In this document: one piece after another, positions 1 through 17,012 of the stretch
Layout: every line of letters begins with the position of its first letter
Numbering within the stretch: the first letter of the stretch is position 1
Source: Candidatus Woesearchaeota archaeon
GTDB taxonomy: Archaea > Nanoarchaeota > Nanoarchaeia > Woesearchaeales > JAGVZT01
Reading direction: 5' to 3'
DNA length: 17,012 nt
Assembly: GCA_017608295.1 (NCBI GenBank)
Contig: JAFCGF010000039.1
Span: forward strand, 1-17,012
Made by a program: the position numbers and the translations under genes
Notes under the pieces: model-generated
Told to the model about the DNA's origin: nothing
The model's input: only the letters and a program-made list of their open reading frames with translations
The model's database searches: none

Positions 1-56
1 TGGATATCATTTTCGTAATCTTTCAGAGAACGAAAGAGTAACGTTTTGAATAGATT

Positions 57-1847: not shown

Positions 1848-1868
1848 CCGGTCAGGTTTTGAGTTTGC

Positions 1869-1893
1869 AGGGGCAACCGGATCGGTTGCCCCT
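1869..1893. repeat. GGGGC palindrome, copy 1
   Basis: Inverted repeat with 11-bp arms (AGGGGCAACCG / CGGTTGCCCCT) around a 3-base loop GAT. It has the same core as the palindromes at 11780-11814 and 16413-16441. It lies about 76 bp past the stop of the DUF1302-like gene and 22 bp before the start of the truncated HTCS, so it could end the upstream transcript or form a hairpin in the next gene's leader. No T-tract follows directly. Confidence 0.85.
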
Positions 1894-1908
1894 ACTCAAA
1901 TAACCGGA

Positions 1909-1916
1909 TAAATATA
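1909..1916 (-). promoter_or_regulatory. Weak -7-like box upstream of the truncated HTCS
   Basis: On the minus strand TATATTTA resembles the Bacteroidota -7 box (TAnnTTTG) with a final G-to-A change. No convincing -33 TTTG lies 19-21 bp upstream; a TTG sits only 15 bp away. If it is used, palindrome copy 1 would fall in the 5' leader of the gene starting at 1847. Weak assignment. Confidence 0.25.
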
Positions 1917-1969
1917 AGAAAAATTAGGGAACAATCGCGGTAACTGGTAGCAAGAAGTTGTTTGTATTA

Positions 1970-3214: not shown

Positions 3215-3238
3215 GACTTTTTAACTTGTATAACTGAA

Positions 3239-4024
3239 TCACATCCCCCTCATCATCATCCTTTCAGAAAATTTGGAGGCCGGAATATTTGTATCGATCT
3301 CTACATTACTTAACACCATGGTAGTACGATGATTCTTTTGCACATTCTCCATTTCGGAACTTGTGACAACCAAAAAGCCTGAGATTTTTTCAAATTTCTT
3401 AATCTTTAATACTTTCAGAAACTCTTCATCTTCATCATAAAATTCCTTTTTTAAACCTATGAAGTTGTCTTTCCTTATCCATGTTTTTGTTCTGGAGTAC
3501 ATATATTCTTCATCCTTTGGTGTGCTTTCAACTATGTAATAATCAACGTCATCGATTGTTTCTTCCCCAATAAGTTCATGAGTATCGTCATCCAATTTAC
3601 GGTCTCCCAGATCGTCGTAAGTAAAGTCGGAACCCATAAAATAATCGCTTTTACTATCGCTGGATATCCTTTTGACCTTTTTTAAAGCCGGAAGATAGAT
3701 CCACTGATCATCACTCTTTTCAGAATCGTATTCCCAACTCATGAATGAAGTGTTTTTTACATCGGCAGGCGACTGGAAAAACATGATGCTTTTTTCTACA
3801 TCACCCATCTCTTTTTTGAATTGTTTGATCTTTCTGATTCTTTTTTTGTCGTTTTTATTGATAAGGGTCATGGTAAGGTCGGATGTTTGATCGTCTCCTG
3901 TTGGAAGGTTGTAAACTTTTTCGATAATCTCCCTGCCACTTAGTTGCTGTGCCATTAATTGTCCTGTAAATCCGGTTGTTATTATTAATGCAACTAATAC
4001 TGATGTGATTTTTAATATTTTCAT
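3239..4024 (-). CDS. Outer-membrane lipoprotein-sorting protein (LolA-like)
   Basis: Periplasmic LolA/LolB-fold protein of the LolA_like family (Pfam PF17131), 261 residues. A signal peptide covers about residues 1-26 (ending L-M-A-Q-Q). The mature part starts with GREIIEKVYNLP and contains family hallmarks: MTLINK followed by a basic stretch, FQSPADVKNTSFMSWEY, DDQWIYLPALKKVKRI, and SDFTYDDLGDR. These proteins have a hydrophobic cavity and usually pair with MMPL-type RND pumps, suggesting transfer of a lipid or lipid-like substrate across the periplasm. The C-terminus is Met-rich (RMMMRGM). It lies between the RND gene (140-bp repeat-bearing gap) and the DUF1302-like gene (24 bp), presumably co-transcribed. 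It is not canonical LolA, since no lolCDE-type genes are nearby. Confidence 0.88.
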   Translation of the reverse strand: MKILKITSVLVALIITTGFTGQLMAQQLSGREIIEKVYNLPTGDDQTSDLTMTLINKNDKKRIRKIKQFKKEMGDVEKSIMFFQSPADVKNTSFMSWEYDSEKSDDQWIYLPALKKVKRISSDSKSDYFMGSDFTYDDLGDRKLDDDTHELIGEETIDDVDYYIVESTPKDEEYMYSRTKTWIRKDNFIGLKKEFYDEDEEFLKVLKIKKFEKISGFLVVTSSEMENVQKNHRTTMVLSNVEIDTNIPASKFSERMMMRGM

Positions 4025-4052
4025 TTTTCTTTTTTTAAATGATGTAATTATT

Positions 4053-4076
4053 TAATGGTGTAATGGTATAATGGTT
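4053..4076. repeat. 8-bp tandem repeat TAATGGTN (3 units)
   Basis: Three head-to-tail units TAATGGTG, TAATGGTA and TAATGGTT fill 24 bp of the gap between the RND and LolA-like genes. They are roughly inverted relative to the array at 4131-4170: TATAATGGTT here pairs with AACCATTGTA there with one mismatch. A hairpin with a 70-base loop could form in the mRNA between the two genes. Confidence 0.8.
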
Positions 4077-4130
4077 TTCCTTCATGGCTACTTTCAATAA
4101 ATGATTAATAAATCTACTTTAATGACATTG

Positions 4131-4170
4131 TATAATTGAATAATTGAACCATTGTATAATTGTATCATTT
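4131..4170. repeat. 8-bp tandem repeat (5 units) containing a stop codon
   Basis: Five 8-bp units: TATAATTG, AATAATTG, AACCATTG, TATAATTG and TATCATTT. The last unit holds the TGA stop codon of the RND gene (4165-4167, minus strand) and its final lysine codon, so the repeat defines the 3' end of that gene. Confidence 0.8.
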
Positions 4171-6465
4171 ATTACTGTTCTTAAAATACAGTTTTGAAAC
4201 ATTCAGCAACACAAGCATAATGGTAAGGGTACCCACAAAACTTGTGAACATATTCAGAGATACCAATGCGCCCAGTTCACGGTTGGGTGGGAATACGGAA
4301 AACAGCAACACCAAAAACCCTGCAATTACAACAATGGCATTAAACAAAATTGCCCTGCCTGAGTGCGCCATGGTTTTTTGTGCAGTAAGTTCTTTGTCGC
4401 CTGTTTTTTTAGCATTCACGCGATATTGCTCGATAAAGTGAACTGCATAATCAATCCCAATACCAATGGCTATGCTCGATAGCAAGGCTGTTGTTGTGCT
4501 GAGAGGTATATCCAAAAAACCCATTACGCCAAAACTTATCAATGCTGTTATAAGAATAGGAACGGCGCCGATAATTCCGGCTTTAATATTTTTAAACATA
4601 AATGACAACAGTACGATTACGATAATTATTGAAAGTATCAAACTCATTATTTGTCCTTCCAATATTAAATCGGTAAATATCAGTCCTTTGTAACCACTGC
4701 CGGCATATTTCATATTAATATTCATTTCTGAAAAATCATCCTCATAAGAATCGATTATGGTTATGGCCGAATTGATAGCTTTTGAATTATCGCTTTTTAA
4801 CTGAAAAGTAACATTCAGTTTTGCATAATCGTAGTCGACTACTTTATCAAGGTTTTCAGGGTCGCCCGACATTTCGTAAAGCAGCAGGTACTGGGCAATC
4901 ATGTCGCGGCTGTCGGGGATAGTATTGAAGGCCTCATCATCGGCATTCATAACCTTGTTCATGCGATTTATGTAATCGGCAAGAGAAAATGACGTTCCCA
5001 CAACATCAAGGTCGCTCTCAAGTTGGTTTTGCATTTGATCAACCAGTCTGAGTGCTTCCGGATTCTTAAACACATCTTTTTTGTCTCCTGCATCCAATAT
5101 GAGGTTTAAGGAAGTTGTTCCTCCAAAATGATCGTTGATAAATTTATCGGTAAGCACTATCTCGCTCTCCTTTTCAAACTTATCCAGGAAACTTGAGTTA
5201 ATCCATATTTTCTGCATTCCTATTATTGAAAGAACTATGATTATAGCGGTAGTAATAATGGAAATGTTTTTCCGTTTCACAACCCAGGAAGCAAATTTGT
5301 CAGCAAAGCCAGGTTTCCCATTTGTTTGTTTTGCTTTGGCCTTTCTAACTTTTGGCAGACCAAAAATCATAATTCCGGCCGGTATCAGGGTCAGAGAAAA
5401 TAACATGGCCGCTAATACTCCGAACGCTGTAAAAATCCCAAAGTATTTAATTGGATTAACCTGCGATGTAAGTAAAGAGATAAAGCCGGCCGCGGTTGTT
5501 ATAGAGGTCATTACCACCGGGCTCCACATGTTTCTTATCATATCGATAACTGCTTCTTTTTTCCCGGCATCAGGATTTTTGCGTTGAAATAATTGCAGAT
5601 GGCTATACAGGTGAATACCGTCGGCAACTCCAATGGCAATAAGCATAACAGGGATCATTGTAGAAACAGCGTATATAGGAATGTCAACCAGCGCCATCAA
5701 TCCAAATGCCCATAACACACTAAAAAACACAACTGCCATTGTGAGCAATGTACTTTTTACACTTCGTAGCATAAAAAACAAGACAATAGTAATTACAAGT
5801 AGTACAATCGGTACCATCTTTTTCATATCAGCAGGGCCAAGGAGGGCCATTGTACCTTCCACAATCGGACGGCCGGCTACATGAATTTTAATATCATCGG
5901 TTTGGAATGAGGATGTCAATTCAAGAATTTCATTGTAAAATTCCTGGCTGAATACATCATCCCTGATTTCGGCAATAATAACTGTAACGGTCTCATCGGT
6001 TGAGACAAGACGTCCATAAATCATTTCGTTATTTCTAACATTTTGCTGTAACTCCTTAAGTTGTTCTTCGGATTTCGGCACCCTTTTAAAGAAACGCTTC
6101 ACATCCATCCCCTCTTCATCACCTACAATATTGTCAGCAGTATAAAGAGATGTGACATCTTCTTTTTCAATCTCATCCATTTTTTGCAGCATCCTGGTCA
6201 GTTGCTTTAAAGTATCGATTGTAGCTGTATTATAAATTCCATTTTTATTTTCCAGGGCCACAATAATACCATCGTTTATTCCAAACCATTCTTCGGCCTG
6301 GTCACTATAGACAAAAGCCGGATGTTCCTGTGGCATATACTTGTCCAGATTGGTTTCCATCCTGGAGTTACTCTTCATTACCACAAAAAACAAAGCGCTG
6401 ATCAAGATTATAACAGCCAGTGTTATCCATGGAGTATTGAGTAGTTTTTTTAGTATGTTTTCCAT
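4165..6465 (-). CDS. MMPL-type RND superfamily transporter
   Basis: Inner-membrane transporter of 766 residues from the RND superfamily, MMPL/HpnN-like branch (COG1033 type). TM1 is at about 12-30, a periplasmic domain at about 31-215, and a block of five helices at about 218-372; this layout repeats in the second half (TM7 about 399-420, periplasmic domain, last helices about 600-760). Each half has the helix-4-type motif with an acidic residue expected to carry protons: GVADGIHLYSH (Asp282) and GIGIDYAVHF (Asp672). At about 770 residues it is shorter than the roughly 1000 of AcrB-type drug pumps and fits lipid-exporting MMPL proteins. It starts 27 bp after the TetR stop and precedes the LolA-like gene. 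The last codon and TGA lie in an 8-bp tandem repeat. Substrate unknown; lipid or hopanoid-like is a guess from the family. Confidence 0.9.
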   Translation of the reverse strand: MENILKKLLNTPWITLAVIILISALFFVVMKSNSRMETNLDKYMPQEHPAFVYSDQAEEWFGINDGIIVALENKNGIYNTATIDTLKQLTRMLQKMDEIEKEDVTSLYTADNIVGDEEGMDVKRFFKRVPKSEEQLKELQQNVRNNEMIYGRLVSTDETVTVIIAEIRDDVFSQEFYNEILELTSSFQTDDIKIHVAGRPIVEGTMALLGPADMKKMVPIVLLVITIVLFFMLRSVKSTLLTMAVVFFSVLWAFGLMALVDIPIYAVSTMIPVMLIAIGVADGIHLYSHLQLFQRKNPDAGKKEAVIDMIRNMWSPVVMTSITTAAGFISLLTSQVNPIKYFGIFTAFGVLAAMLFSLTLIPAGIMIFGLPKVRKAKAKQTNGKPGFADKFASWVVKRKNISIITTAIIIVLSIIGMQKIWINSSFLDKFEKESEIVLTDKFINDHFGGTTSLNLILDAGDKKDVFKNPEALRLVDQMQNQLESDLDVVGTSFSLADYINRMNKVMNADDEAFNTIPDSRDMIAQYLLLYEMSGDPENLDKVVDYDYAKLNVTFQLKSDNSKAINSAITIIDSYEDDFSEMNINMKYAGSGYKGLIFTDLILEGQIMSLILSIIIVIVLLSFMFKNIKAGIIGAVPILITALISFGVMGFLDIPLSTTTALLSSIAIGIGIDYAVHFIEQYRVNAKKTGDKELTAQKTMAHSGRAILFNAIVVIAGFLVLLFSVFPPNRELGALVSLNMFTSFVGTLTIMLVLLNVSKLYFKNSNK

Positions 6466-6492
6466 TTTGTACTTATTAATTATTCTCTGAAT

Positions 6493-7077
6493 TTATTTTT
6501 CTAAAATTTTACTCAATACAGCTATTAACTTTTTACCTTCCGCACTTAAACTAAAATTGTGATTGTTCAGATCCCATTTTTTTACTAGCAACCTTAATGA
6601 ACCCATTGCTATTAAAGCAAGGCTTTTTTCATTAATATCTTCCCTTACAGTTTTTTCTGATTGACCTTTCAAAATAATATTTTCAATCGTTTGTGTATTC
6701 AGGTTTAAAATCTCAACTATTTTAATTTTTAAGACTTCTTCATTTTTAAATATTTCTTCTGAAAATATAACTGAAACCATTGATGGGGTTTCAGAAAATA
6801 ATTCGAGCATCTTCGAAAACATGAAACTGATCTTTTCTATTGCCGTGGCTTCATATGTTTCCATCATTTCGGAAAGCATAATCGCCATCTCTTTAAAATT
6901 ATTCAGAATACGAAGAAGGATCTCTGTTTTGCTCTCAAAATGCCTGTATATTCCCGGTTCAGATATACCAATAGCTTTTGAAAGATTTCTAATGGTCAAC
7001 CCCTGTATCCCTTTCTTATCAATGATTTTGATAGATTCATCAATGATTTGCTGTTGTCTTTTTGTTAGCATTTCCAA
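6493..7077 (-). CDS. TetR/AcrR-family transcriptional regulator
   Basis: Repressor-type regulator of 194 residues. The TetR HTH lies at about residues 6-55: KRQQQIIDESIKIIDKKG, then GLTIRNLSKAIGISEPGIYRHFESKTEIL, with the typical G-I-Y-R-H-F recognition helix. The remainder is a variable helical ligand-binding domain. It is first in the RND/LolA-like/DUF1302-like unit and only 27 bp from the pump gene, so it very likely controls its own operon and responds to the pump's substrate. A promoter is visible at 7102-7132. The start ATG at 7077 follows the leader ATTATTTGGAA. Confidence 0.92.
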   Translation of the reverse strand: MEMLTKRQQQIIDESIKIIDKKGIQGLTIRNLSKAIGISEPGIYRHFESKTEILLRILNNFKEMAIMLSEMMETYEATAIEKISFMFSKMLELFSETPSMVSVIFSEEIFKNEEVLKIKIVEILNLNTQTIENIILKGQSEKTVREDINEKSLALIAMGSLRLLVKKWDLNNHNFSLSAEGKKLIAVLSKILEK

Positions 7078-7101
7078 ATAATGTTAGTTAGCATTCGCTC
7101 G

Positions 7102-7132
7102 CAAAAGTAATACTAAATTTTTAACGAACAAG
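7102..7132 (-). promoter_or_regulatory. Promoter of the tetR-RND operon
   Basis: On the minus strand CTTG (7132-7129), a 19-bp spacer, and TACTTTTG (7109-7102) match the Bacteroidota consensus TTTG-N19/21-TAnnTTTG. Transcription should start about 18-22 nt before the TetR ATG. The short leader contains AATG-TTAGTTAG-CATT (7079-7094), an imperfect palindrome overlapping the expected start site and a candidate operator for the TetR protein. Promoter fit is good; the operator is a guess. Confidence 0.65.
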
Positions 7133-7175
7133 TTTTTTAATTATTTTGTGAATTGGATCAGCGTGAGAAGGCTTT

Positions 7176-7334
7176 TCATTTCATTACATGATCTTCCACA
7201 TTCGAGAGACTGGGTAATCCAGGATCTCTTAATTGATCTTGCAGTTGATCAACATCAAAGCTTCTGAGACCAAGATAATGTACCAGGTTTAAAGCACTTC
7301 TGCGATAAACAGGATGGACATTTTCAATTTCTTT
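7176..7334 (-). pseudogene. Remnant of a pyruvate-kinase-like protein (N-terminal region)
   Basis: A 52-codon fragment beginning KEIENVHPVYRRSALNLVHY and continuing with LGLRSFDVDQLQDQL, PGLPSLSNVEDHVMK, then TGA. It matches the helical region that precedes the TIM barrel in the long pyruvate-kinase homologues (pattern: H-P, R-x-S-A-x-N-L-x-H-Y-L-x-L-R, L-Q-x-x-L, G-L-x-S-L, H-V). After the TGA the sequence goes on in the next frame as MKSLLTLIQFTK (down to 7141), the expected continuation, so a frameshift sits near 7180. The catalytic barrel is absent. The fragment overlaps the 3' end of the HD gene in another reading frame. Recognised from memory of the family pattern; a profile search would settle it. 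Confidence 0.65.
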
Positions 7335-7924
7335 TGTAATAGTTGTAGATTTTTGTCTTTTTTTGGTTGAAGTTCTTTTTTTGCAAAATAAGTATGATAT
7401 TCATGTGTCTGAAAAAACTTTACTGATGTTGCATGGAATTTGCGTTTTCCGATTTTCTTTTCTGAAAGATTGATCCATTCTTTCCGCATTTTTTCAATCC
7501 GTTCGATATAGTTGTCCTCTGAAAGATGCATGAGGTCCGCATCACAAAGGACTCTGGAAATAAGATCTTTCGGTTGCTGTGGCACAATGGTAGCCAGAAT
7601 ACAATTTTTTATAAGGGTTATTATACCTTCATCAATGCCTTTTGAAGTTAAAAATTCGGCAGCGATTCTGGCGCTTTCCTCCTCGTGACCTTCAGGACTA
7701 ATAATATAACCTGTATCGTGAAACCAGGCACAAAGTTTTACAATATTTATTTCATCATCTTTTAAACCACTAATCTTTCCAATAAACTCCGAGTTATCAA
7801 CTACATACTTCGCATGATCGATAGTATGAAATTCTATGTTATCAGGTAATTTTTCGGCCAAAAGTTTGGTTACGAAATTCCCGGCTTCTTTTACTAAATC
7901 AACATCTATTTTATTCATTGGCAT
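7289..7924 (-). CDS. HD-domain phosphohydrolase, probably truncated
   Basis: Predicted metal-dependent phosphohydrolase of the HD superfamily, 211 residues. Metal ligands are visible: His in FHTIDHAKYV (about 32-41), the HD pair in CAWFHDTGY (about 66-74), His in GHEEES (about 79-84) and Asp in LCDADLMHL (about 127-135). The tail KKELQPKKDKNLQLLQKKLK is typical of Bacteroidota proteins in which this HD domain is followed by a PycTM (DUF5706) membrane domain of the Pycsar-effector type. Here the frame leaves that homology after KKLK and ends with SILFIAEVL, inside DNA that in another frame encodes a pyruvate-kinase-like remnant. I infer a rearrangement removed the membrane half. Start is ATG at 7924 or 7918; no Shine-Dalgarno is seen. 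Activity on a nucleotide is likely; substrate unknown. Confidence 0.78.
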   Translation of the reverse strand: MPMNKIDVDLVKEAGNFVTKLLAEKLPDNIEFHTIDHAKYVVDNSEFIGKISGLKDDEINIVKLCAWFHDTGYIISPEGHEEESARIAAEFLTSKGIDEGIITLIKNCILATIVPQQPKDLISRVLCDADLMHLSEDNYIERIEKMRKEWINLSEKKIGKRKFHATSVKFFQTHEYHTYFAKKELQPKKDKNLQLLQKKLKMSILFIAEVL

Positions 7925-7983
7925 ATCGTTGTACTCTAATTTAAACTTCCATTAATGAGAAAAATTGCATGATCGAATTGCGA

Positions 7984-8319
7984 TTAAAACATAAACCTAA
8001 ATGTAAAATCTATCATGCTATCTTCGTTTGACCTATTATAAGTTATTGTCAATGCTGTATAATCAAACGGTGTTAGCCATATTCTTATTCCATAACCATC
8101 ATGCCACCTCCTGGAATCTTCTCCTTTTACCCACACCCGGCCTATATCATTAAATATCAGAATGCCTGTTTGTCCATTAAATACACGACTTTTAATATTC
8201 AGTAATTTGAACCGAACCTCTGTATTCTGGTAAAATGAATGATCTCCTGCAAAACGATTGCACCTGAATCCTCTGAGGTTCGTTTTACCGCCCAGAAAAT
8301 TTAGCATGGTAAAATTCAT
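7984..8319 (-). pseudogene. C-terminal fragment of an Omp85/BamA-type outer-membrane protein
   Basis: About 110 residues matching the end of the Omp85 (surface antigen D15) barrel: LGGKTNLRGFRCNRFAGD is the conserved L-G-G-x-x-x-L-R-G-(F/Y)-R motif with the R-F-x-G-D lock, followed by YQNTEVRFKL, a penultimate strand segment and a terminal Phe (FTFRFMF), as in true barrel proteins. Full proteins have 400 or more residues; the N-terminal part is gone. The frame can be extended to a TTG at 8391, but the extra residues read through an IS-end-like sequence (8381-8450) and do not look like barrel protein. Probably non-functional, left after a mobile-element event. Confidence 0.72.
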
Positions 8320-8380
8320 AATCCCCAATATTAACAGCTCCTCACAATGGATGAGAAAACAGAAAATAGAGGGTAAAATG

Positions 8381-8450
8381 GGGGTGGTCAATTTAAATCG
8401 GCCAAAGGGGGGTCACTTTGCTTCGGCCAAGAGGGGTCACTTTACGCGGC
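8381..8450. mobile_element. Iterated repeat resembling an IS21-type element end
   Basis: Three iterations with about 25-bp spacing: GGGGTGGTCAATTTAAAT then CGGCCAA; GGGGGGTCACTTTGCTT then CGGCCAA; GAGGGGTCACTTTACG then CGGCTT. The core is GGGGTCACTTT plus CGGCCAA. Multiple transposase-binding repeats near the ends are a known trait of IS21-family elements, and I have an impression of similar repeats at Bacteroidota IS21 ends, but no istA or istB is present. It abuts the broken Omp85 gene. The repeat is certain; the IS21 assignment is tentative. Confidence 0.5.
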
Positions 8451-8548
8451 TTGTGCATTCTTCATGGAACAGGTGAAAAACTCAGGACACTGGCATCAGG
8501 TTGGAATGGGAATTTCTTAATGGCACCGACAATTTTTTTACTATTTTC

Positions 8549-8578
8549 TTGTTTTTTAAGAAATGTTTCTTATATTTG
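8549..8578 (+). promoter_or_regulatory. Promoter of the ATPase gene, predicting a leaderless mRNA
   Basis: TTG (8549-8551), 19-bp spacer, TATATTTG (8571-8578): a close match to the Bacteroidota -33/-7 consensus. Transcription should start about 5-7 nt past the -7 box, right at the ATG at 8584. The alternative in-frame ATG at 8563 lies upstream of the -7 box and would not be transcribed from here. Confidence 0.65.
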
Positions 8579-8583
8579 TCGTT

Positions 8584-9882
8584 ATGAACAAGAAAGATTT
8601 GATAAAATCCATCTTGAAATCCTGGCAGGATAGGTTACCCGTGTCGGTAATTCCCCGGGAAATCAGTCTGCCGATTGATGCTCAAAAGATCATTACAGTT
8701 GTTGGTGTACGAAGATGTGGCAAGACATCTGTTTTATTTGACACCATCAACAGGTTGATCCTAAACGGGGTGCAAAAGGAACGAATCCTGTTTTTTTCAT
8801 TTGACGATGAACGGTTAAACCTGAAGAGCGATGAATTTGACCTTATTCTTCAGGCCTACAGGGAACTCTACCCGGGTATTCCTTTGAAAGATTGCTTTTT
8901 CTTTTTTGATGAGATTCAAATGGCAGATGGATGGGAGCAGTTTGTTAGAAGGATCTATGATGCCGAAACGAAGAAAATCTATTTGTCCGGTTCCAATTCA
9001 CGCATGCTGGCCACAGATATTGCTACCTCTCTCCGGGGAAGGACCCTGCAATATGAGATCTTTCCGTTGAATTTTAATGAGTTCTGTAATTTCCGGAAAT
9101 TGGATAAAACGACCTTCCTGCCAACAACCATTCCTTATCTTATCAATGCATTCAGAGATCTGATGATGAAAGGCGGTTTCCCGGAACTCGTGTTGAATAG
9201 ATATGCGGAGTTGGAAAGAACGCTGCAGGAATACTATTTTGTACTTCTCTACAAGGACATTGTTGAACGTTATGAAATCCGGAACATCCCTGTACTGAAA
9301 TATTTTGTCACCAGGATGCTCTCTAATCTCTCGAAACCCACATCCATCAATAAAGTCAACAATGAACTGAAATCAGCCGGATATAAATTTGACAAGAATC
9401 TGTTGTATTCGTTAGCAGAATACCTTGAAAATGTATTCTTTATGTTTCGAATGGGTCGGTTTTCCAGAGATGTCGTTCTCTCAGATTTCACCAATAAAAA
9501 AATGTATTTTGTCGATAATGGGATGATTCAGGCTCTGACCCGTTCATACCAGGATGATTATGGCAAATTGTTTGAGAACCTGGTCTTCCTCTGGCTACGT
9601 CAAAAAAAACCATTCCAGCGGGGACTCCTTTACTTTCAGGAGAAAAAAGAGTGCGATTTTGTCCTGTTTGACAGAAACAAACCTGAGATGCTGGTACAAT
9701 GCTGTTACAATCTTGAAGATCCTGATACCAGAAAACGGGAGATCGAAGGGCTGATGGAGGCTTCAGATTATTTTAATTGCCGAAATCTGAGGATTCTCAC
9801 TTTTGATCAAGAGGAAGAGATCAAAGTGGATGGCCGTATTATCCGGATTGTACCTGCATGGAAAGAGATGCTGGCTGAATAA
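8584..9882 (+). CDS. AAA_14 / DUF4143 family ATPase
   Basis: Cytoplasmic P-loop ATPase of 432 residues in the AAA_14 plus DUF4143 family (archaeal-type ATPases, common in Bacteroidota, function unknown). Visible parts: Walker A GVRRCGKTS (41-49), FSFDDERL (71-78), Walker B FFFFDEIQ (105-112), sensor-1-like SGSNSRML (135-142), SLRGRTLQYEIFPLNFNEF with Arg151, MKGGFPELVLN in the linker, and YKDIVERYEIRN at the start of DUF4143. The C-terminal motif EKKECDFVLF (353-362) resembles the D/E-x-D-F-V of the restriction-endonuclease-like fold, followed by a downstream Q where Q/E-x-K is usual, so nuclease activity is doubtful. I chose the ATG at 8584, not the one 21 bp upstream, because of the promoter placement. 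It converges with the beta-helix gene, 9 bp between stop codons. Such genes are often scattered singletons near mobile DNA, as here. Confidence 0.88.
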   Translation: MNKKDLIKSILKSWQDRLPVSVIPREISLPIDAQKIITVVGVRRCGKTSVLFDTINRLILNGVQKERILFFSFDDERLNLKSDEFDLILQAYRELYPGIPLKDCFFFFDEIQMADGWEQFVRRIYDAETKKIYLSGSNSRMLATDIATSLRGRTLQYEIFPLNFNEFCNFRKLDKTTFLPTTIPYLINAFRDLMMKGGFPELVLNRYAELERTLQEYYFVLLYKDIVERYEIRNIPVLKYFVTRMLSNLSKPTSINKVNNELKSAGYKFDKNLLYSLAEYLENVFFMFRMGRFSRDVVLSDFTNKKMYFVDNGMIQALTRSYQDDYGKLFENLVFLWLRQKKPFQRGLLYFQEKKECDFVLFDRNKPEMLVQCCYNLEDPDTRKREIEGLMEASDYFNCRNLRILTFDQEEEIKVDGRIIRIVPAWKEMLAE

Positions 9883-9891
9883 CAGACCTTT

Positions 9892-11676
9892 TTAACGTTT
9901 CACCATTTTCCTGGTCCCGGTTCTGTTTCCAGCCATAATCCTGAACACATAAATCCCTGCCGGCAACGACCCGGCATCCCAAGTCAGCCGGTTTGTCCCC
10001 TTCTGTCCATGCTGTGAAATTTTATCAACCTCCTGCCCAAACTGGTTCAGGATGGATATTTCAACTGTTCCAAATTGAAGAAGATCGTATTCAATGGTTG
10101 TGAATGAAGAGAACGGATTCGGATAATTCGTAATTCGAAAATCGAAAATCGGAGATTGCAAATCGTCTATCCCTACACACCAATCAACTTCATAAGCACC
10201 CATATCCGGTGGGGTTGACGCAGGCAAAGGCCGTGGAAGGTTTCGGATATCATAGTCGGGGGAATAACACCAGCCATAATTGTCAATATACATCGAATCT
10301 GTACCTGTTCCGGCACAAGGTGCGTTGACACAGGAATCAATGCAGTAATTTCCGATTGTCGGATCAATAAAACCCGGATCAGCATCTATATTCCCAATTC
10401 CAGTCCAGCCACCTTGAATATTAGAATAATTAACCGATGAAAAGCTATTATCATTAAATATTGCAGGACCATAATATGCACTGTTATCATAAATTATGGA
10501 ATTCAGGACGATACAACTATCTTTATAATTATATATTCCTCCTCCGATGTCAGCCGAATTTTGAACAATTGTATTATTGATGATAATTGTTTCACACTTT
10601 GAGGTATCTAATATTGATATACCCCCTCCATTTGTAGCTGAATTGTTATAAATCAGGTTATTCACAATTTTTGCCGTACTCCAGATCAGGTTGATCCCAC
10701 CACCACGGCATGTTTGTGCATTTGAAAAATAATTATGAGCGATTATATTATTCTCGATGACAAGCGAAGTGTCCGTCTTCCAGGCACTTATAGCACCCCC
10801 ACAGGTGCTCTGCGAGGATTGCTCATTATGCATGATGACATTGTTATTTACCTGCCCGAACACCCCGATCAGGTACATCGCACTTCCATAGGCACTAGAG
10901 TTAGAACCAACGCCTAAAGATTTATTATGGGAAATTGTATTATTGGAAACTAGTACCTTACAGGAGACGGGTGGTGAAATACAAAAAAATGCTGCTTTTA
11001 CACTGTTTGATTCCGCATGATTATTGGTTATTTCATTCCCTGTAATTGTGGCATCACATGCTATTGTAAATGCAGATCCTGAGGCATCCTTATCTGCAGC
11101 TGTGTTTTTTAGGTAATTCCATCTGAATTTGTTATCTTTGATCACAAGATAGTCGTCCCAATCATTATCTGCAAAATAGTATAATCCTCCTCCTCTGAGA
11201 TTGACCCCAGCAAGGTTATTTACAATTGTATCACGCTCAATATAATTATTCATGATCTTTGCCCCTGAGTAGTAACAGAGAATACCGCCACCACCTCTTC
11301 TGGTAGTTGGGAGGTATGTGCCTTTGCCACCAGTTATTGTAAATCCCTGGATAATAGAGGTCGTATCTTCATCTGAAATGAAATAAACTACGGATGCACT
11401 GTCGGGATGAGAGGGTTGGCTTCCATCGATAATTGTGTTTGTTATATGCATTGTATCACCATCCATTAAAAAATTACTGGCCACCGTTATTGCTTTACCC
11501 TGAAAATTGATGTTCTCAAAATAGGCACCATCAGCAACCAATACTGTATCTCCATTAGATGCCGCATCAATCCCCGCCTGGATGGTGGGTTGGTCGCCCG
11601 GCACATGGATGATTTGTGCGAAAACAGGTGAAACGATGAACATTAAAACTGCAATTGTAATTGTCAATGTTTTCAT
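9892..11676 (-). CDS. Secreted right-handed beta-helix protein with T9SS type A sorting domain
   Basis: Exported protein of 594 residues. The signal peptide covers about 1-20 (ending V-F-A-Q). It opens with IIHVPGDQPTIQAGIDAASN and GDTVLVADGAYFENI, the usual start of pectin-lyase-fold proteins, then short repeats built on N-N-x-I-x-x-N with GGG turns (about residues 120-440), and closes with ADPGF and PPDMGAYE as in choice-of-anchor Q type proteins. A linker from a 7-bp repeat (10125-10166) precedes the type A sorting domain (TIGR04183 type; about 516-594): NYPNPFSSFTTIEYDL, WDAGSLPAGIYVFRI, basic tail RKMVKR. It should be secreted by the T9SS to the surface or medium. No catalytic residues can be assigned, so it may be a lyase-like enzyme or a structural protein. 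A strong GGAGGA lies about 8 bp before the ATG, unusual here. Likely controlled by the adjacent HTCS. Confidence 0.88.
   Translation of the reverse strand: MKTLTITIAVLMFIVSPVFAQIIHVPGDQPTIQAGIDAASNGDTVLVADGAYFENINFQGKAITVASNFLMDGDTMHITNTIIDGSQPSHPDSASVVYFISDEDTTSIIQGFTITGGKGTYLPTTRRGGGGILCYYSGAKIMNNYIERDTIVNNLAGVNLRGGGLYYFADNDWDDYLVIKDNKFRWNYLKNTAADKDASGSAFTIACDATITGNEITNNHAESNSVKAAFFCISPPVSCKVLVSNNTISHNKSLGVGSNSSAYGSAMYLIGVFGQVNNNVIMHNEQSSQSTCGGAISAWKTDTSLVIENNIIAHNYFSNAQTCRGGGINLIWSTAKIVNNLIYNNSATNGGGISILDTSKCETIIINNTIVQNSADIGGGIYNYKDSCIVLNSIIYDNSAYYGPAIFNDNSFSSVNYSNIQGGWTGIGNIDADPGFIDPTIGNYCIDSCVNAPCAGTGTDSMYIDNYGWCYSPDYDIRNLPRPLPASTPPDMGAYEVDWCVGIDDLQSPIFDFRITNYPNPFSSFTTIEYDLLQFGTVEISILNQFGQEVDKISQHGQKGTNRLTWDAGSLPAGIYVFRIMAGNRTGTRKMVKR
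10125..10166. repeat. 7-bp tandem array inside the beta-helix gene
   Basis: Six 7-bp units in 42 bp: AATTCGT, AATTCGA, AAATCGA, AAATCGG, AGATTGC, AAATCGT. On the coding strand this gives the linker around LQSPIFDFRIT just before the sorting domain. 42 bp is 14 codons, so the frame is kept. Related arrays occur at 16683-16724 and 12694-12756. Confidence 0.75.
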
Positions 11677-11683
11677 TGTATGG

Positions 11684-11704
11684 TCCTCCGTTGGTTTCTA
11701 CCAA
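11684..11704 (-). promoter_or_regulatory. Leader hairpin and strong Shine-Dalgarno of the beta-helix gene
   Basis: On the minus strand TTGGT-AGAA-ACCAA (11704-11691) is a perfect 5-bp stem with a 4-base loop. GGAGGA (11689-11684) follows, about 8 bp before the ATG. TCCTCC upstream (11720-11725) could pair with GGAGGA, but only if transcription starts further upstream than the -7-like box at 11705-11712. Confidence 0.45.
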
Positions 11705-11712
11705 TAAAATTA
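11705..11712 (-). promoter_or_regulatory. -7-like box of the beta-helix gene
   Basis: TAATTTTA on the minus strand resembles TAnnTTTG. No TTTG lies 19-21 bp upstream, as expected of a promoter that depends on an activator bound just upstream; the direct repeat at 11743-11772 sits in that position. Confidence 0.4.
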
Positions 11713-11742
11713 CATCAAGGAGGAGCCGGAATTCTACCAGCC

Positions 11743-11772
11743 ATGTTGCAATTAACGAGAGATATGTTGCAA
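11743..11772. promoter_or_regulatory. 21-bp-spaced direct repeat, candidate HTCS/AraC operator
   Basis: ATGTTGCAA occurs at 11743-11751 and again at 11764-11772, exactly 21 bp apart from start to start, i.e. two helical turns on the same face. AraC-family proteins, including HTCS regulators, typically bind such direct repeats. The site is 31 bp or more upstream of the -7-like box of the beta-helix gene and 36 bp from the end of the HTCS gene. The repeat is certain; its role is inferred. Confidence 0.6.
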
Positions 11773-11779
11773 AAAGAGG

Positions 11780-11814
11780 TTTGTAGGGGCGACCGGCCCG
11801 GTCGCCCCTACAAA
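11780..11814. repeat. GGGGC palindrome, copy 2, holding the HTCS stop codon
   Basis: Near-perfect hairpin with 16-bp arms (core TTGTAGGGGCGACCG / CGGTCGCCCCTACAA) and a 3-base loop GCC. The HTCS stop codon TAG (11810-11808, minus strand) lies inside the arm. In the minus direction CTCTTTTTG follows a few bases later and in the plus direction ATTTTTG follows, so it could end transcription both ways. Confidence 0.85.
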
Positions 11815-14800
11815 TTTTTGATAAACTCGGAAGGCAGGAGGCCAAATTGCTTTTTAAAGCACTCGGCGAAATAGGCCGGGTTGGAAAATCCCACTTCCAG
11901 GGCGATCTCTGAAATATTTCCTGTTTTGTGTTCTAGTAGCCTGGCTGCATGATGGAGCCGGATAGCCCGGATGAATTCTGTGGCCGATTGATTGACAAGA
12001 GCTTTCAATTTCCTGTGGAGCTGGGTTCGGCTGAGGTACATCTTTTCGCTGAACCGGGGGATGTCGAAGGTTTCGTCCGAGAGATGATCCTCAATGATGC
12101 TCTTGGCCCTGATGAGGAATTTTTCATCCAGCGATATAAGTTCTTTCTCCCTGGTTTTTTCCTTTTTGGGGAGATCTTCTATCCCCATCTCCCGGAGGTA
12201 TCGTTCCCGAAGCCGTTCCCGCCCCGCTATCAGGTTCCGGATCCGGATCTGGAGCTCATCGGGATCGAACGGTTTGGTAAGAAAATCATCGGCACCGGTC
12301 TCCAATCCTTCGAGCTTGCTTTCCGGGGCTGCACGGGCTGTCAGGAGAATGACCGGAATATGACTGGTGCGTTCGTCGGTTTTCAGCTTCTCACAAAGCT
12401 CAAATCCATCCATCCCAGGCATCATCACATCACTCAGGATCAGGTCGGGAATCTCTTCTGTAGCTTTTTTCAATCCTTCGTTACCGTCTCTGGCTTCTGT
12501 AATGTGGTAAGATTCATCAAGGTAGCTGCGGATGTAGGCCCGAAGGTCGGTGTTGTCCTCTACAATCAGGAGGAGAGGCTGCTCGTTTCCTACCCCCAAA
12601 CCCCCTAAAGGGGGCTTACTCCCCTCCCTTGTTGGGGAGGGGCCGGGGGTGGGGTAGGATTGATTGGCTCCGTCGAATTCCGTTTTGCTCCGGTTGTCGA
12701 TTGTCGATTGTCGATGTTCGATATTCGATATTCGGTGTTCGATATTCGACATTCCATCCTGAACATTTACCTCCTCCTCATTCAAATGCTCTTTCCCAAG
12801 TGGAAGAATAACCCTAAATGTCGTTCCTTTACCAACCTCACTTTCAACGTAGATAGTACCCTGGTGTAGTTCGACCAGTTCCTTAGTTAGGGCAAGGCCG
12901 ATGCCGGTGCCTTCCTGGTCGCGTGTGTAGGAATCATCAGCCTGGTAGAAACGGTCGAAGATGTGCGATAAATGGTCAGGAGGAATGCCGGGGCCGGTGT
13001 CGGAGATCCGTATAGTGGTATGGTGGTGGGGTGATGTGGTGGGGGTAGTGGTGCTATGGTGCAGTGGTGCAGTAGTGAATTGTCCCTTTGTCCCCTTGTC
13101 CCTTTGTCCTCTTTCACTGCCTATTGCCAACTGCCCACTGCCAACTTCGATTTTGATAAGACCACCTTCCGATGTAAATTTAAACGCGTTTGATAGCAGG
13201 TTGTAGAGAATCTTTTCGAGTTTTTCCTGATCAATATAAACCTGAATATCTTTTTCTTCAGCCTGGAAGACCAGGTCGATGTTTCGCTGTTTTGCCAGGG
13301 ATTCGAATGATTGGACATAGCCATTTACCAGTTCGACAAGGTTCACTTCCCTGACTTGCAACCTCATCTCTCCCGATTCCAGTTTAGAGAGGCTCAGCAA
13401 CTGGTTGATCAGCCGTTGCAGCCGCCGTGCGTTTCGCTGCATCATTTCCAAGTCCGGCAACCCCTCCTCTAAAACCACCTTTCTGAGTTTTTCAAGCGGA
13501 CCCAGGATCAGGGTAAGCGGGGTTCTGAATTCATGGGAGATGTTGGCAAAGAAGCGGGATTTAATTTTATCCATCTCTTTCAGCTTCTCCGCCTCCACCT
13601 GTTCCAGTTCCAGATCCTGTTTCAACCGTTGCCGTTTCAGGTCATACCGGCGCCAGGCAACGATCAATCCCAATAAAAAAAGAGCATAGAGTGAATAGGC
13701 CCACCATGTTCTCCAGGGAGGCGGCAGGATCGTGATCGCAAGAGAGGTTCCGGCTTCGTTCCAGTACCCATCGTTGTTGGAGCCTTTTACACTGAAAATA
13801 TAGTCACCAGGAGAAATGCCTGTATAGTTGGCATATCGCCTGTTGCCGCAATAGACCCAGTCGTTATCGATCCCTTCCAGCTGATAGGCATACTGGTTCT
13901 TACCGGGATTCATGTAATCCAGTGCAGCAAATTCAAGAGTGAGATAATTTTGGTTGTAGGAGAGTGTAAGTTGCTTTAACATGGTGATGTTGGTATCGGT
14001 AACGTACGGTTCATTACGGATCTTCAGATCTGTGATAAAAACCGGAGGGATTTGAGTGTTAATTGTTATACTATCGGGGTGGAAATAATAAAAACCATTT
14101 TGCTGGGCACCTCTGCCAGGAACAAAGATCTGTCCGTCGCTGCTTTTAAACAATGGGGTTGTTATATGTTTTTCAAAAGGTAATCCGTCAGATAGGTCAA
14201 AAAGTTTCGGGGTTTCACCCGGTATGATATCTGGCTTAAACATCACAATACCTTTCCAGGTGTTCATCCAAAGATACCCGTTGTCATCTTCAACGATGGA
14301 GAGGATACTATTTTCACCGATCAACTCATTCTTTTCGTAAACCTCAATAAATTCGTGACTTTCATTCATCATAAACAATCCTTCGGTTGTTCCTACCCAG
14401 AAAGTCCCGTTTTTACTTTCAAAAATACATTTTGGGTTGCCTTTTAAACACCTGCTGTCGTTGTTACAGTCCCCAACTCTCTGGAAAGTGATCGAATCAG
14501 AGCTAAGTTCATTCATACGAAACAATCCTTTATTGGAAGCAATCCAGACAATACCGAAGTCATCCTTGTATAAATCACTGATCCATGAATCTGAGAGTTT
14601 ATCATGATTTGCCATTCTCAATGGTTCAGGCACCTGCTTTTTACCATCAAACCAGAACAGTCCCCGGTTTGTAGCAACCCATATAACCCCCATGTTGTTC
14701 TCAAGTATATCGTTGATCCCTTCCGGGAGCAGTTGGTCTTCCGGGATGTTAAACTTCAACTTTGTAACAGACTCTTCGTCTCTGTCAAATAGATAGATCC

Positions 14801-16118
14801 CGGCATATGGCCTGTTCATTCCAATCCATAATCGATGTTTAGAATCTTCCAAAATTTTGAAAACACTATAATTGAGAATGAGACGATCATCGAACCTTAA
14901 ATTAAACCGTTTCATAAAGTTCAGCTGTTGATCATACTTTATTAATCCGCCATTTGGTGAGCCAATCCAGAGATTACTATCCTCATCTTCATAAAAAGTC
15001 ACTGCAGAATAACTATGTTGATTTATTCCATGGGACATGAAAACTTGATTGAAAGGCTTCAAACGAAGATCAAATATATCAATGCCATCCGGTCCCGCAA
15101 TCCAGAGTAAACCACTGTCATCAAGGAACAGTGCGTTTACATGATCGCTCGACAAGCTTTCAGGATTAGTGGGATCTGTGTGAACCCTGTGGTACAATCC
15201 CGAATTAAATTCATATGCATTCAACCCCCACCATGTTGCGATCCACAGGTAATATCCATCTGCATCCTTATATTCAACAATGTCGGTAATATGATAATTG
15301 CTTGGATATTTGGATCTGTTTTTATTCGGGGGCACCCACTCAAGCTTCCCATTATCATATTTAAATAGTAGATGATCTGTTCCGATCCAGAGAACTCCAT
15401 TGTGGTCTTCTGCAATACAATTGATGATCTTATGCCAGTTTTCAATAGGTTCCACAGGGAGAACCAGTTCGATCTCTTTGAAAACCTTCCGTTGTCTGTC
15501 AAATTGATAAAGACCGCCATTGGTACCAATCCAGAGCATCCCTTCCTTATCCTGGAAAATGACCTGAACCTGATCTTTCTTATTGCCGGGGTACAATGGA
15601 TCCTGTTGAAAAACGTTAAAACGACCTGATGAAGGATCAAAAAGATTTAACCCATCGTGTGTTCCAACCCAGATTAAATCTTGATTATCCTGATAGATTA
15701 TATTCACCCTGTCATGACTGATGCTGGTGGGATCGTCCGGGTTGTGAGTGTAATGGGAAAAAGTTTCTGTCGCAGCATGAAACCGGTTCAACCCTCCATT
15801 GATTGTTCCGACAAGTAAATCTCCATTCGTGTATTCTACTAAAGCCATTATAGAATTCCTGGAAATCGATGTTGAATCATTCGGGTCGTTTTTATAGGCT
15901 TTTACATTGTATCCGTCATAACGGTTTAATCCCCCTACAGTACCAAACCACATAAAGCCCTTCGAGTCTTTGATGATGCATCGAATATAATTTGAAGACA
16001 ATCCTTCTTTGGGTGTGATATGCCTGAATTTAAACTCCTGTGATTGGGAAAGAGCCAATTGCGTTGCAATGATCAAAAGGAGCACTCCCCAGATGGATAT
16101 GACAGGATAACGGGGCAT
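11808..16118 (-). CDS. Hybrid two-component system (HTCS) sensor-regulator
   Basis: One-piece sensor, kinase and transcription factor of 1436 residues. Order: signal peptide (about 1-25); 14 reg_prop blades forming a double propeller (about 30-690); Y_Y_Y domain (about 735-798); one TM helix (about 804-825); HisKA with FFANISHEFRTPLTLILGP (phospho-acceptor His862); HATPase with N-box LLSNAFKFT and G-boxes DTGPGIP and GTGIGLALTKEL; receiver VEDNTDLRAYI with LSDVMMPGMDG (phospho-acceptor Asp1230); AraC-type HTH (about 1335-1436, SRTQLHRKLKAL and IALEVGFSNPAYFAECFKKQFG). All catalytic residues are present. Three repeat-derived, frame-keeping inserts interrupt it: residues 993-1035 inside the ATPase domain, and about 1123-1143 and 1154-1177 in the kinase-receiver linker. 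The stop codon comes from a palindrome, so the usual short basic tail after SEFIKNL is missing. It likely activates the beta-helix gene downstream. Ligand unknown; in relatives often an oligosaccharide. Confidence 0.95.
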   Translation of the reverse strand: MPRYPVISIWGVLLLIIATQLALSQSQEFKFRHITPKEGLSSNYIRCIIKDSKGFMWFGTVGGLNRYDGYNVKAYKNDPNDSTSISRNSIMALVEYTNGDLLVGTINGGLNRFHAATETFSHYTHNPDDPTSISHDRVNIIYQDNQDLIWVGTHDGLNLFDPSSGRFNVFQQDPLYPGNKKDQVQVIFQDKEGMLWIGTNGGLYQFDRQRKVFKEIELVLPVEPIENWHKIINCIAEDHNGVLWIGTDHLLFKYDNGKLEWVPPNKNRSKYPSNYHITDIVEYKDADGYYLWIATWWGLNAYEFNSGLYHRVHTDPTNPESLSSDHVNALFLDDSGLLWIAGPDGIDIFDLRLKPFNQVFMSHGINQHSYSAVTFYEDEDSNLWIGSPNGGLIKYDQQLNFMKRFNLRFDDRLILNYSVFKILEDSKHRLWIGMNRPYAGIYLFDRDEESVTKLKFNIPEDQLLPEGINDILENNMGVIWVATNRGLFWFDGKKQVPEPLRMANHDKLSDSWISDLYKDDFGIVWIASNKGLFRMNELSSDSITFQRVGDCNNDSRCLKGNPKCIFESKNGTFWVGTTEGLFMMNESHEFIEVYEKNELIGENSILSIVEDDNGYLWMNTWKGIVMFKPDIIPGETPKLFDLSDGLPFEKHITTPLFKSSDGQIFVPGRGAQQNGFYYFHPDSITINTQIPPVFITDLKIRNEPYVTDTNITMLKQLTLSYNQNYLTLEFAALDYMNPGKNQYAYQLEGIDNDWVYCGNRRYANYTGISPGDYIFSVKGSNNDGYWNEAGTSLAITILPPPWRTWWAYSLYALFLLGLIVAWRRYDLKRQRLKQDLELEQVEAEKLKEMDKIKSRFFANISHEFRTPLTLILGPLEKLRKVVLEEGLPDLEMMQRNARRLQRLINQLLSLSKLESGEMRLQVREVNLVELVNGYVQSFESLAKQRNIDLVFQAEEKDIQVYIDQEKLEKILYNLLSNAFKFTSEGGLIKIEVGSGQLAIGSERGQRDKGTKGQFTTAPLHHSTTTPTTSPHHHTTIRISDTGPGIPPDHLSHIFDRFYQADDSYTRDQEGTGIGLALTKELVELHQGTIYVESEVGKGTTFRVILPLGKEHLNEEEVNVQDGMSNIEHRISNIEHRQSTIDNRSKTEFDGANQSYPTPGPSPTREGSKPPLGGLGVGNEQPLLLIVEDNTDLRAYIRSYLDESYHITEARDGNEGLKKATEEIPDLILSDVMMPGMDGFELCEKLKTDERTSHIPVILLTARAAPESKLEGLETGADDFLTKPFDPDELQIRIRNLIAGRERLRERYLREMGIEDLPKKEKTREKELISLDEKFLIRAKSIIEDHLSDETFDIPRFSEKMYLSRTQLHRKLKALVNQSATEFIRAIRLHHAARLLEHKTGNISEIALEVGFSNPAYFAECFKKQFGLLPSEFIKNL
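12588..12659. repeat. 72-bp element with 9-bp inverted ends inside the HTCS gene
   Basis: Ends TCCTACCCC / GGGGTAGGA enclose two perfect hairpins: CCCCC-TAAA-GGGGG (12601-12614) and CCCCTCCC-TTGTTG-GGGAGGGG (12621-12642). At 72 bp it adds exactly 24 codons (residues 1154-1177, SYPTPGPSPTREGS then KPPLGGLGVG), a Pro/Gly-rich linker between kinase and receiver. From memory, similar C/G-rich repeats are common between genes in Bacteroidota. Confidence 0.85.
12694..12756. repeat. 7-bp tandem array (9 units) inside the HTCS gene
   Basis: Nine contiguous 7-bp units: TTGTCGA three times, then TGTTCGA, TATTCGA, TATTCGG, TGTTCGA, TATTCGA, CATTCCA. The 63 bp make 21 codons, read on the minus strand as three heptads MSNIEHR, ISNIEHR and QSTIDNR. 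It lies in the kinase-receiver linker, 34 bp from the 72-bp element. Confidence 0.88.
13014..13142. repeat. 129-bp compound repeat insert in the HATPase domain
   Basis: Three blocks in a row: a GTGG-rich stretch (13014-13079); four 8-bp units TTGTCCCT, TTGTCCCC, TTGTCCCT, TTGTCCTC (13080-13111); and four 7-bp units CTGCCTA, TTGCCAA, CTGCCCA, CTGCCAA (13117-13144, running just into the flank). It is read as 43 residues from GSGQLAIGSERG to SPHHHTT, between strand LIKIEV and strand IRISDTGPGIP, where other HTCS proteins have a short turn. Confidence 0.8.
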
Positions 16119-16224
16119 CAGGTTGGGTTAGGGCGTCATAAAGATAATAAAAAAGAAGTGAAAAAGATGCAGCGAGACAGCATGGAGGTTGCTTCACTAT
16201 TTCTTAGTTAGCGATATACATGAT

Positions 16225-16378
16225 CGAGGTTGCTTCATCACGCCACAGGCGTGATTCGCAATGACACGGTTTCAAATTAATTAAGCCACCCTGTCATCAC
16301 GAGGACCCCGCCTCGGCGGGGGACGAAGTGATCTCGTTCCGGCAATCTGTCAGCTATGAAACCGATGAAGCAACCTCG
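16225..16378. repeat. MITE-like element with 15-bp inverted ends
   Basis: CGAGGTTGCTTCATC (16225-16239) and its exact reverse complement (16364-16378) bound 154 bp. Inside are two opposed copies of one hairpin unit: one with ATCACGCC-ACA-GGCGTGAT (16237-16255) followed by TCGCAATGACACGG, the other with CTGTCATCACGAGG then CCCCGCC-TC-GGCGGGG (16306-16321) and GACGAAGTGATCTCG. An extra GAGGTTGCTTC is at 16185-16195. No protein is encoded. The unit resembles the widespread GTCATTGCGA / GAAGCAATCTC type of bacterial repeat. Confidence 0.75.
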
Positions 16379-16412
16379 TTTCGGAAAGCAGCCAACTAAG
16401 GTGAAACCATTG

Positions 16413-16441
16413 GTAGGGGCAACCGGACCGGTTGCCCCTAC
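16413..16441. repeat. GGGGC palindrome, copy 3
   Basis: Perfect 13-bp arms GTAGGGGCAACCG / CGGTTGCCCCTAC around GAC, starting 5 bp after the TAA of the T9SS protein gene. It shares 11-bp arms with copy 1 and differs from copy 2 by one compensated base pair (CAAC versus CGAC), which keeps the stem intact. No T-tract follows. Confidence 0.88.
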
Positions 16442-16446
16442 AGACG

Positions 16447-17012
16447 TTATCTCACCAAAACCAGTTTCTTCGAACCGTATTTGCCCCCAGCCACGATTCG
16501 GCACACATATATCCCCGCCGGTAACGACCCGGCATCCCAGGTAACCTTGTTTTTTCCTTGTTGGCCGGCATGATCAATGTTATCGACTACCTGTCCAAAC
16601 TGGTTATATATTATGATCTCCACATTTACAGGCTTTTCCAGTTCAAATTCGAGGGTCGTAGAAAAAGAAAACGGATTCGGATAACTCTTCAATCGTAAAT
16701 CGAAAATCGGAGATCGGAGATCGGCCACTCCTACCGCCGGCATCCCCCCTGTCTTCACAATGTGAAACTGCACCGCTCCGCCATTGCTTTCGATCCGGAA
16801 GGCGAGGGAGTCGGTCAGGGTATCTACGGGGGTGTAATAGATGAAGAAAGTATAGTCGAAGGGACCTTCCAGGGTGATGGTGGTGTCAAAAGTAGTGATG
16901 AACTCGGTACCCTCCAGTGAGGTGATGGAGGTAAACCTCAGCGTGTCATTGGCCCGGTTGGTAATGGTCAATGGAATGGGATCTGTGTTCCCAATCGCGA
17001 CAGTATCATCCG
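16447..17012 (-). CDS. C-terminal part of a T9SS-exported protein (partial)
   Basis: The frame is open to the window end; the first residues seen are DDTVAIGNTDPIPLTITNRAND, so the N-terminus lies outside. The first roughly 100 residues resemble an ASH/choice-of-anchor D immunoglobulin-like domain (LTITNRANDTLRFTSI, YTPVDTLTDSLAFRI). A linker around LRSPIFDLRLKS derives from a 7-bp repeat. The last about 80 residues are a type A sorting domain: SYPNPFSFSTTLEFEL, VEIIIYNQFGQVVD, WDAGSLPAGIYVCRI, basic SKKLVLVR. The sorting domain is clearly related to that of the beta-helix protein (shared NQFGQ-V and WDAGSLPAGIYV). It should be secreted by the T9SS and anchored or processed at the surface. 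Function of the missing part unknown. Confidence 0.85.
   Translation of the reverse strand, partial: DDTVAIGNTDPIPLTITNRANDTLRFTSITSLEGTEFITTFDTTITLEGPFDYTFFIYYTPVDTLTDSLAFRIESNGGAVQFHIVKTGGMPAVGVADLRSPIFDLRLKSYPNPFSFSTTLEFELEKPVNVEIIIYNQFGQVVDNIDHAGQQGKNKVTWDAGSLPAGIYVCRIVAGGKYGSKKLVLVR
16683..16724. repeat. 7-bp tandem array in the T9SS protein gene
   Basis: Five clear 7-bp units, CAATCGT, AAATCGA, AAATCGG, AGATCGG, AGATCGG (16690-16724), plus a weak sixth (ACTCTTC, 16683-16689). It encodes the linker just before the sorting domain, the same position and family as the array at 10125-10166. Confidence 0.75.

Follow-up and report, generated by a model that had tools for sequence, protein, structure and literature searches.

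Degenerate heptanucleotide arrays in interdomain linkers of a 17-kb Bacteroidota-like contig, and their relation to sorting domains of the type IX secretion system

Mrazek reportedly described, in 2007, heptanucleotide long simple sequence repeats (LSSRs). Repeats may also be inserted in protein genes, as the Rickettsia palindromic elements are. Here we analyse three arrays of degenerate 7-bp units lying between protein domains in a stretch of 17,012 nucleotides (contig JAFCGF010000039.1 of assembly GCA_017608295.1, positions 1 to 17,012, hereafter the window). The contig is filed under Candidatus Woesearchaeota; its DNA is Bacteroidota-like, with the closest match in a Bacteroidia genome. In the passages of the literature cited here, heptanucleotide repeats are described as over-represented and polymerase slippage is proposed as their origin (PMC4679880, PMC4692102). 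Examples are the GGGAATC repeats of Xanthomonas and the GGGGA(C/T)T repeats of Nostoc, and convergent pairs of heptamers have been reported in Xanthomonas (PMC4692102). TAACTGA direct repeats occur in Beggiatoaceae, Cyanobacteria and some Bacteroidetes (PMC4679880). In Borgs, in-frame tandem repeats create amino-acid repeats which are often disordered (PMC9879509), and repetitive extragenic palindromes (REPs) inside genes have been described as well (PMC3733652).

The window arrays probably belong to this already known kind of repeat. The LSSRs and the Xanthomonas and Nostoc repeats are likewise 7-bp units arranged head to tail; as far as the cited source describes them they are dispersed, as the window arrays may be, and mostly intergenic with a minority in genes; the words and the lineage differ, the units here are more degenerate, and here they occupy interdomain linkers, including those of the type IX secretion system (T9SS) (PMC4692102). 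The TAACTGA repeats form dispersed heptanucleotide arrays, and in the part of the work cited those within open reading frames (ORFs) chiefly occupy the ends of proteins or stretches to which no domain is assigned; they differ in an unrelated word and in lying mostly just upstream of start codons in the best-studied genome (PMC4679880). The in-ORF Borg repeats resemble the window arrays in yielding amino-acid repeats, but their units are described in the cited part as divisible by three and mostly perfect, whereas the 7-bp units of the window are degenerate and in frame only at multiples of three copies (PMC9879509). We think it likely that the window arrays are degenerate heptanucleotide arrays of a dispersed kind which have settled in coding positions tolerating extra residues, and that they play no role in moving sorting domains.

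The window was scanned for periods 3 to 24 in 42-bp windows and compared with 30 Markov shuffles. Period 7 exceeded all 30 shuffles at four places, 10115-10173 (0.77), 12681-12764 (0.89), 13113-13157 (0.66) and 16676-16738 (0.80), the largest shuffled period-7 value being 0.63. Period 8 did so at three places (4032-4080, 4122-4174 and 13057-13122; shuffle maximum 0.68), so that the 17 kb contain four places for period 7 and three for period 8. Periods 3, 6 and 18 stood above the shuffles at one place each and period 24 at two; the signals at periods 14, 16 and 21 come from the same arrays as those at 7 and 8. An earlier note on this DNA had placed three 7-bp arrays between domains, two directly before T9SS sorting domains and one between kinase and receiver (HATPase_c and Response_reg), and both the arrays and their positions are borne out, head-to-tail 7-nt units scoring 0.77-0.89 at the three arrays, above chance as in LSSRs. 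The three arrays are as follows.

10125..10166, + strand: array 1, six degenerate TCG-N4 units; the - strand encodes DDLQSPIFDFRITN before YPNPF.
12694..12756, + strand: array 2, nine heptanucleotide units where a linker joins HATPase_c to Response_reg; the - strand encodes SNIEHRISNIEHRQSTIDNR.
16683..16724, + strand: array 3, six heptanucleotide units; the - strand encodes ADLRSPIFDLRLKS before YPNPF.

With units counted by eye, the + strand unit is TCG(N4) in all three arrays; one unit of array 1 reads TTG, the last of array 2 reads TCC, and one of array 3 is degenerate. All three array-bearing genes are on the - strand. The lengths of 42, 63 and 42 bp, pointed out earlier as multiples of 21, hold, and they are what is expected since whole 7-bp units have to stay in the reading frame and two of the arrays share their ancestry.

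Arrays 1 and 3 precede the following features.

9892..10125, - strand: T9SS type A sorting domain (TIGR04183 / PF18962), aa 518-594 of a 594-aa protein encoded by the ORF at 9892-11676.
16447..16683, - strand: second T9SS type A sorting domain, in a gene that extends past the window end.
10082..10176, - strand: edge of the shared module, comprising the array and the start of the C-terminal domain (CTD), in the same register as 16640-16734 (76%).

TIGR04183 matches both C-termini at 39.3 and 44.5 bits, above the curated cut-off of 23; by score they are T9SS type A sorting domains, and type IX secretion is predicted for both proteins. The alignment of the two C-terminal modules is ungapped across array and CTD. 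Identity is 0.79 over the array and 0.63 over the CTD, and in the stretch immediately upstream (10180-10259) it is 0.20. Arrays 1 and 3 are therefore not independent, both being part of one linker plus sorting-domain module, and independent insertion of the two is ruled out since the similarity continues through the CTD. Given this shared module, their equal length of 42 bp is most simply inherited. Duplication of one C-terminal module had been named beforehand as a finding that would speak against an exchange of signals between cargo domains, and these two arrays do share one such module.

When the last 105 residues were used as protein query, 10 relatives were found besides the query itself, and a second search from one of the relatives added more. 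Among the Pfam accessions precomputed for the relatives are those of rhodanese, a glycoside-hydrolase pair, kelch and BNR-type families. Linker and domain occur on several cargo types within the close CTD subfamily, and several members have no listed cargo domain. A repeat-like linker of 14 residues before YPNPF or FPNPF was recognised by eye in 16 of 17 close members, the window pair included (examples are ELRITNYELRITN, LRSPISDFRIKN and DLRISNFEFRISN), P0128 being the one without it. Related sorting domains joined to other cargo have a similar linker of 14 residues, so that array and domain are probably inherited as a unit. At least 3/7 identities at a spacing of seven residues were reached in 7/17 close CTDs versus 0/21 more distant T9SS proteins, while the control spacings 4-6 and 8-10 reached this in 1/17 close and 6/21 distant ones. 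Of 395 genomes searched for the CTD subfamily, 110 matched at E 1e-10 with a best identity of 45%, and there is therefore no DNA of a close relative among them. Comparison of the CTD DNA with 4 genomes of the family of G180 (introduced below) gave no match, which is uninformative. In a tree of 16 CTDs, drawn to trace any exchange of linker words (P0131 was left out as too short), 1/13 inner branches was well supported.

Array 2 lies in a different type of gene, together with other repetitive DNA.

11808..16118, - strand: hybrid two-component regulator gene, 1436 aa, with Reg_prop, Y_Y_Y, HisKA, HATPase_c, Response_reg and HTH_18.
12588..12659, no strand: REP-like palindrome, in frame, within the linker that holds array 2; encodes YPTPGPSPTREGSKPPLGGLGVG.
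13010..13157, no strand: cluster of 8-mer and 7-mer arrays, in frame, in a HATPase_c loop.

The array is located between HATPase_c (aa 963-1108) and Response_reg (aa 1184-1293). Compared with array 1 without gaps, it reaches an identity of 0.60 at best, a value attained by 0/2355 other windows. The unit held to be common to all three arrays is shared by arrays 1 and 3 at 79% identity and weakly by the kinase array, which is separate from the two sorting-domain arrays. The region from 12585 to 12770, covering array and palindrome, folds at z -4.5 (0/200 shuffles as good), and aa 1155-1177, the palindrome region, are gaps in more than 75% of 56 other aligned kinases. This palindrome is of the same sort as the in-gene REPs, repetitive DNA being tolerated within genes; in contrast to these, as described in the cited part of that work, the three window arrays are tandem repeats and not palindromes (PMC3733652).

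The kinase alignment contained 57 proteins above 1300 aa, the window's included, taken from the best 60 of 7952 found. With a threshold of 5/10 or more, and judged from protein sequence, periodicity at seven residues in the loop or the linker was present in 12/57 kinases including that of the window; the same test at periods 5, 6, 8 and 9 gave 0, 2, 1 and 0 of 57. Several homologues carry other repeat-like peptides in the same HATPase_c loop. The fold of the loop cluster (13000-13150) has a z of 0.30, giving no signal of inverted pairing.

Arrays of this word family are found in many other genomes. The pattern of five TCG-N4 units occurs in at least 118 stretches, with many phyla among the 80 matches listed. 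Besides the array for which each was selected, these 118 loci (864,881 bp) contain 56 arrays with period 7 and 7 with period 8, and no other period between 2 and 24 accounts for more than 4. Across 11 genomes the number of pattern matches, which overlap and are not counts of arrays, ranges from 2 to 645: 378 in G001, 275 in G002, 645 in G004, 163 in G006 and 151 in G007, and only 2-4 in each of G180, G149, G400, G614 and G615. The reversed pattern as a control gave 0 in G001, 1 in G002, 17 in G004, 0 in G006 and 7 in G400, as well as 0 in G149, 0 in G614, 2 in G615 and 2 in G180. Among the matches listed, the favoured words differ between G001, G002, G004 and G006. One cultured strain with arrays of this sort is Pseudochryseolinea flava SDU1-6 (L162).

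Placement was determined in stretches of two array-rich genomes, picked from contigs with listed arrays. Within 391 kb of G001 (Bacteroidales), where ORFs cover 92%, 29 of the 39 arrays are intergenic, 6 overlap the end of an ORF and 4 are inside ORFs. Those inside are two in PurL, one in MutS2 and one in an ORF without Pfam match, so that the arrays occur in unrelated proteins; the MutS2 array lies between MutS_V (371-551) and Smr (732-807). Within 392 kb of G002, 47/48 arrays are intergenic and none is inside an ORF (four further arrays with masked letters, 52 with them, are omitted from this count). Additionally, 38/40 arrays fetched from these two genomes lie where no frame stays open across the 150-nt flanks. 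The proposed role as interdomain linker is real and extends to other genes, being seen in the window arrays, in MutS2 of G001 and, by protein sequence, in related kinases; a role in connection with sorting domains is not supported.

The latter was assessed at sorting-domain junctions in seven genomes (G180, G001, G002, G006, G400, G007 and G004, which is titled Chlorobiota), the better-scoring TIGR04183 matches being sampled. A junction was counted when period 7 reached at least 0.65 within 100 nt upstream. Of 130 fetched junctions 120 were scored, and 3/60, 2/40 and 5/30 loci were left out as having no PNP motif near the match. None of the 120 junctions was positive (0/57, 0/38 and 0/25), and in the loci of the 57-junction set 2/1140 random windows passed. 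By the same kind of measure (90 nt) the two junctions of the window score 0.86 and 0.79. A pattern of YPNP plus array, covering some codons and one strand only, was found in 2/395 genomes. Furthermore, G180, which comes closest among 247 Bacteroidia genomes when judged by one protein (76%), has at least 150 TIGR04183 matches and one array of the word family.

The earlier note proposed that fusions to sorting domains are seeded or spread by the repeat, perhaps with the arrays as recombination sites by which C-terminal sorting domains are exchanged between cargo genes. This we regard as very unlikely. The check that the earlier note had suggested, here run in seven other genomes, gave no period-7 excess at TIGR04183 junctions, the narrow YPNP pattern is confined to the two genomes mentioned, G180 combines many sorting domains with a single array, and the array in the kinase joins no sorting domain at all. 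That the two CTD modules become similar only a short way upstream of the array, and that related CTDs with a similar linker are on several cargo types, fits such exchange; the array is indeed at a module edge, yet any domain-wise duplication would also break there. Among the papers listed by a literature search on T9SS linkers with repeats, nothing was on point. The periodicity could alternatively be a by-product of selection for a peptide with a period of seven residues, for example a strand before YPNPF, with no DNA repeat involved. By eye, the FxIxN before YPNPF resembles the FxLxQN of other T9SS proteins. Still, the same word family is mostly intergenic in G001 and G002 and a period-7 array is also present in the unrelated kinase linker, and we give this explanation hardly any credence.

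A further explanation takes the arrays for the arms of small mobile elements that are palindromic, composed of an array, a REP-like hairpin and an inverted array, which insert widely and of which the window copies are remnants or one-armed forms. In G006 (Saprospiraceae), an inverted array follows within 140 nt at 24/29 array loci, and 13 of these 24 have a clear hairpin, with pairing at 10 or more positions of the inner 14 nt; 32/36 of the (TCGTGAR)n tracts end at the same phase. Inverted partners lie beside 58/228 period-7 arrays in the 118 loci and beside 24/208 arrays in viral contigs, with 4 in the reversed-only control in each case, and the kinase array is 34 nt from the in-frame palindrome. 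On the other hand, none of the window arrays has an inverted partner nearby (0/3 at period 7, 0/3 at period 8), partners are beside only 2/44 arrays in G001 and 7/64 in G002, the start phases of the 36 G006 tracts do not depart significantly from evenness (P 0.18), and pooling the phases of all 118 loci, whose words are mixed, gives a nearly even distribution. We hold this origin to be unlikely. It is somewhat less doubtful, though still rather improbable in our view, that heptanucleotide arrays across many phyla are arms or deposits of a mobile or templated system, with own words per genome, preferred phases and the inverted arms of G006, which would supply interdomain linkers as a side effect in place of local slippage. 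No paper on heptamer arrays with REP hairpins turned up in a literature search.

In the loci L520-L559 of G006, heptanucleotide arrays appear as inverted arms around REP-like hairpins with several types of core. Arrays of one word start or end at preferred phases despite differing flanks in L420-L439 (G001) and L520-L530 (G006), and the downstream flanks of these G006 arrays are partly alike.

The settling of dispersed arrays in tolerant coding positions, which we prefer, could have proceeded as follows. Read three times, a 7-bp unit gives a repeat of seven residues, so that arrays of 3n units become in-frame linkers when their orientation is free of stops. Arrays 1 and 3 would stem from one event in which linker and sorting-domain module were copied between cargo genes, module and array together, while array 2 would have arisen, or been inserted, separately, in a linker of the kinase which acquired a REP-like palindrome as well. 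Selection would only filter out disruptive arrays, units may be gained and lost by slippage or conversion, and the arrays themselves would not move sorting domains.

Several observations weigh against this reading. The identity of array 2 to array 3 is only 0.52, with 3/2355 other windows as high, and our confidence is slightly lowered by this, since the best chance windows resemble the kinase array as closely as array 3 does. The preferred boundary phases, seen also in G001, do not fit plain local slippage. Reversed-pattern controls are high in G003 (33 vs 25) and G007 (70 vs 151), and one of the two PurL arrays is at the edge of the domain match and not clearly interdomain. One genome among the 395, G400, is a convincing case of an array ahead of a YPNP motif, and the enrichment count rests on seven other genomes, from which the source lineage might differ. 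The relatives P0122-P0136 were judged at the protein level alone. Some of the 12 kinase loop or linker matches are just at the threshold, and in the remainder of the kinase (about 1300 aa, some 10 times longer) 10/57 pass at period 7 and 4-6/57 at other periods.

Other repeats in the window were recorded. The 8-bp arrays at 4032-4080 and 4122-4174 flank a short intergenic spacer and can pair as an inverted pair; the fold of this pair (4030-4176) is not above shuffles (z -1.07, 29/200 shuffles as good). A 24-bp tandem repeat above shuffles is located at 8401-8446 beside a short ORF. The palindrome GTAGGGGC..GCCCCTAC is present in three copies outside the long ORFs listed, at 1863-1895, 11779-11815 and 16409-16445, the latter two being 84% and 91% identical to the first; it is REP-like, though its GTAG end falls within the pairing part. 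An intergenic inverted repeat at 16203-16400 has 37-nt arms that are 73% complementary, with a GC-rich palindrome between them (by eye). Finally, the ORF at 57-1847 encodes 596 aa with Reg_prop and without the kinase part of its neighbour's architecture, and it scores 115.6 bits against T9SS_PorZ, far under the cut-off of 260.

Short repeats resembling junk DNA can thus become protein linkers in unrelated genes, and a repeat that is shared where domains meet is not necessarily a device for recombination. With the preferred phases of array boundaries and the cores of the hairpins in other genomes, it becomes testable why seven is a favoured length of repeat, a long-standing question.

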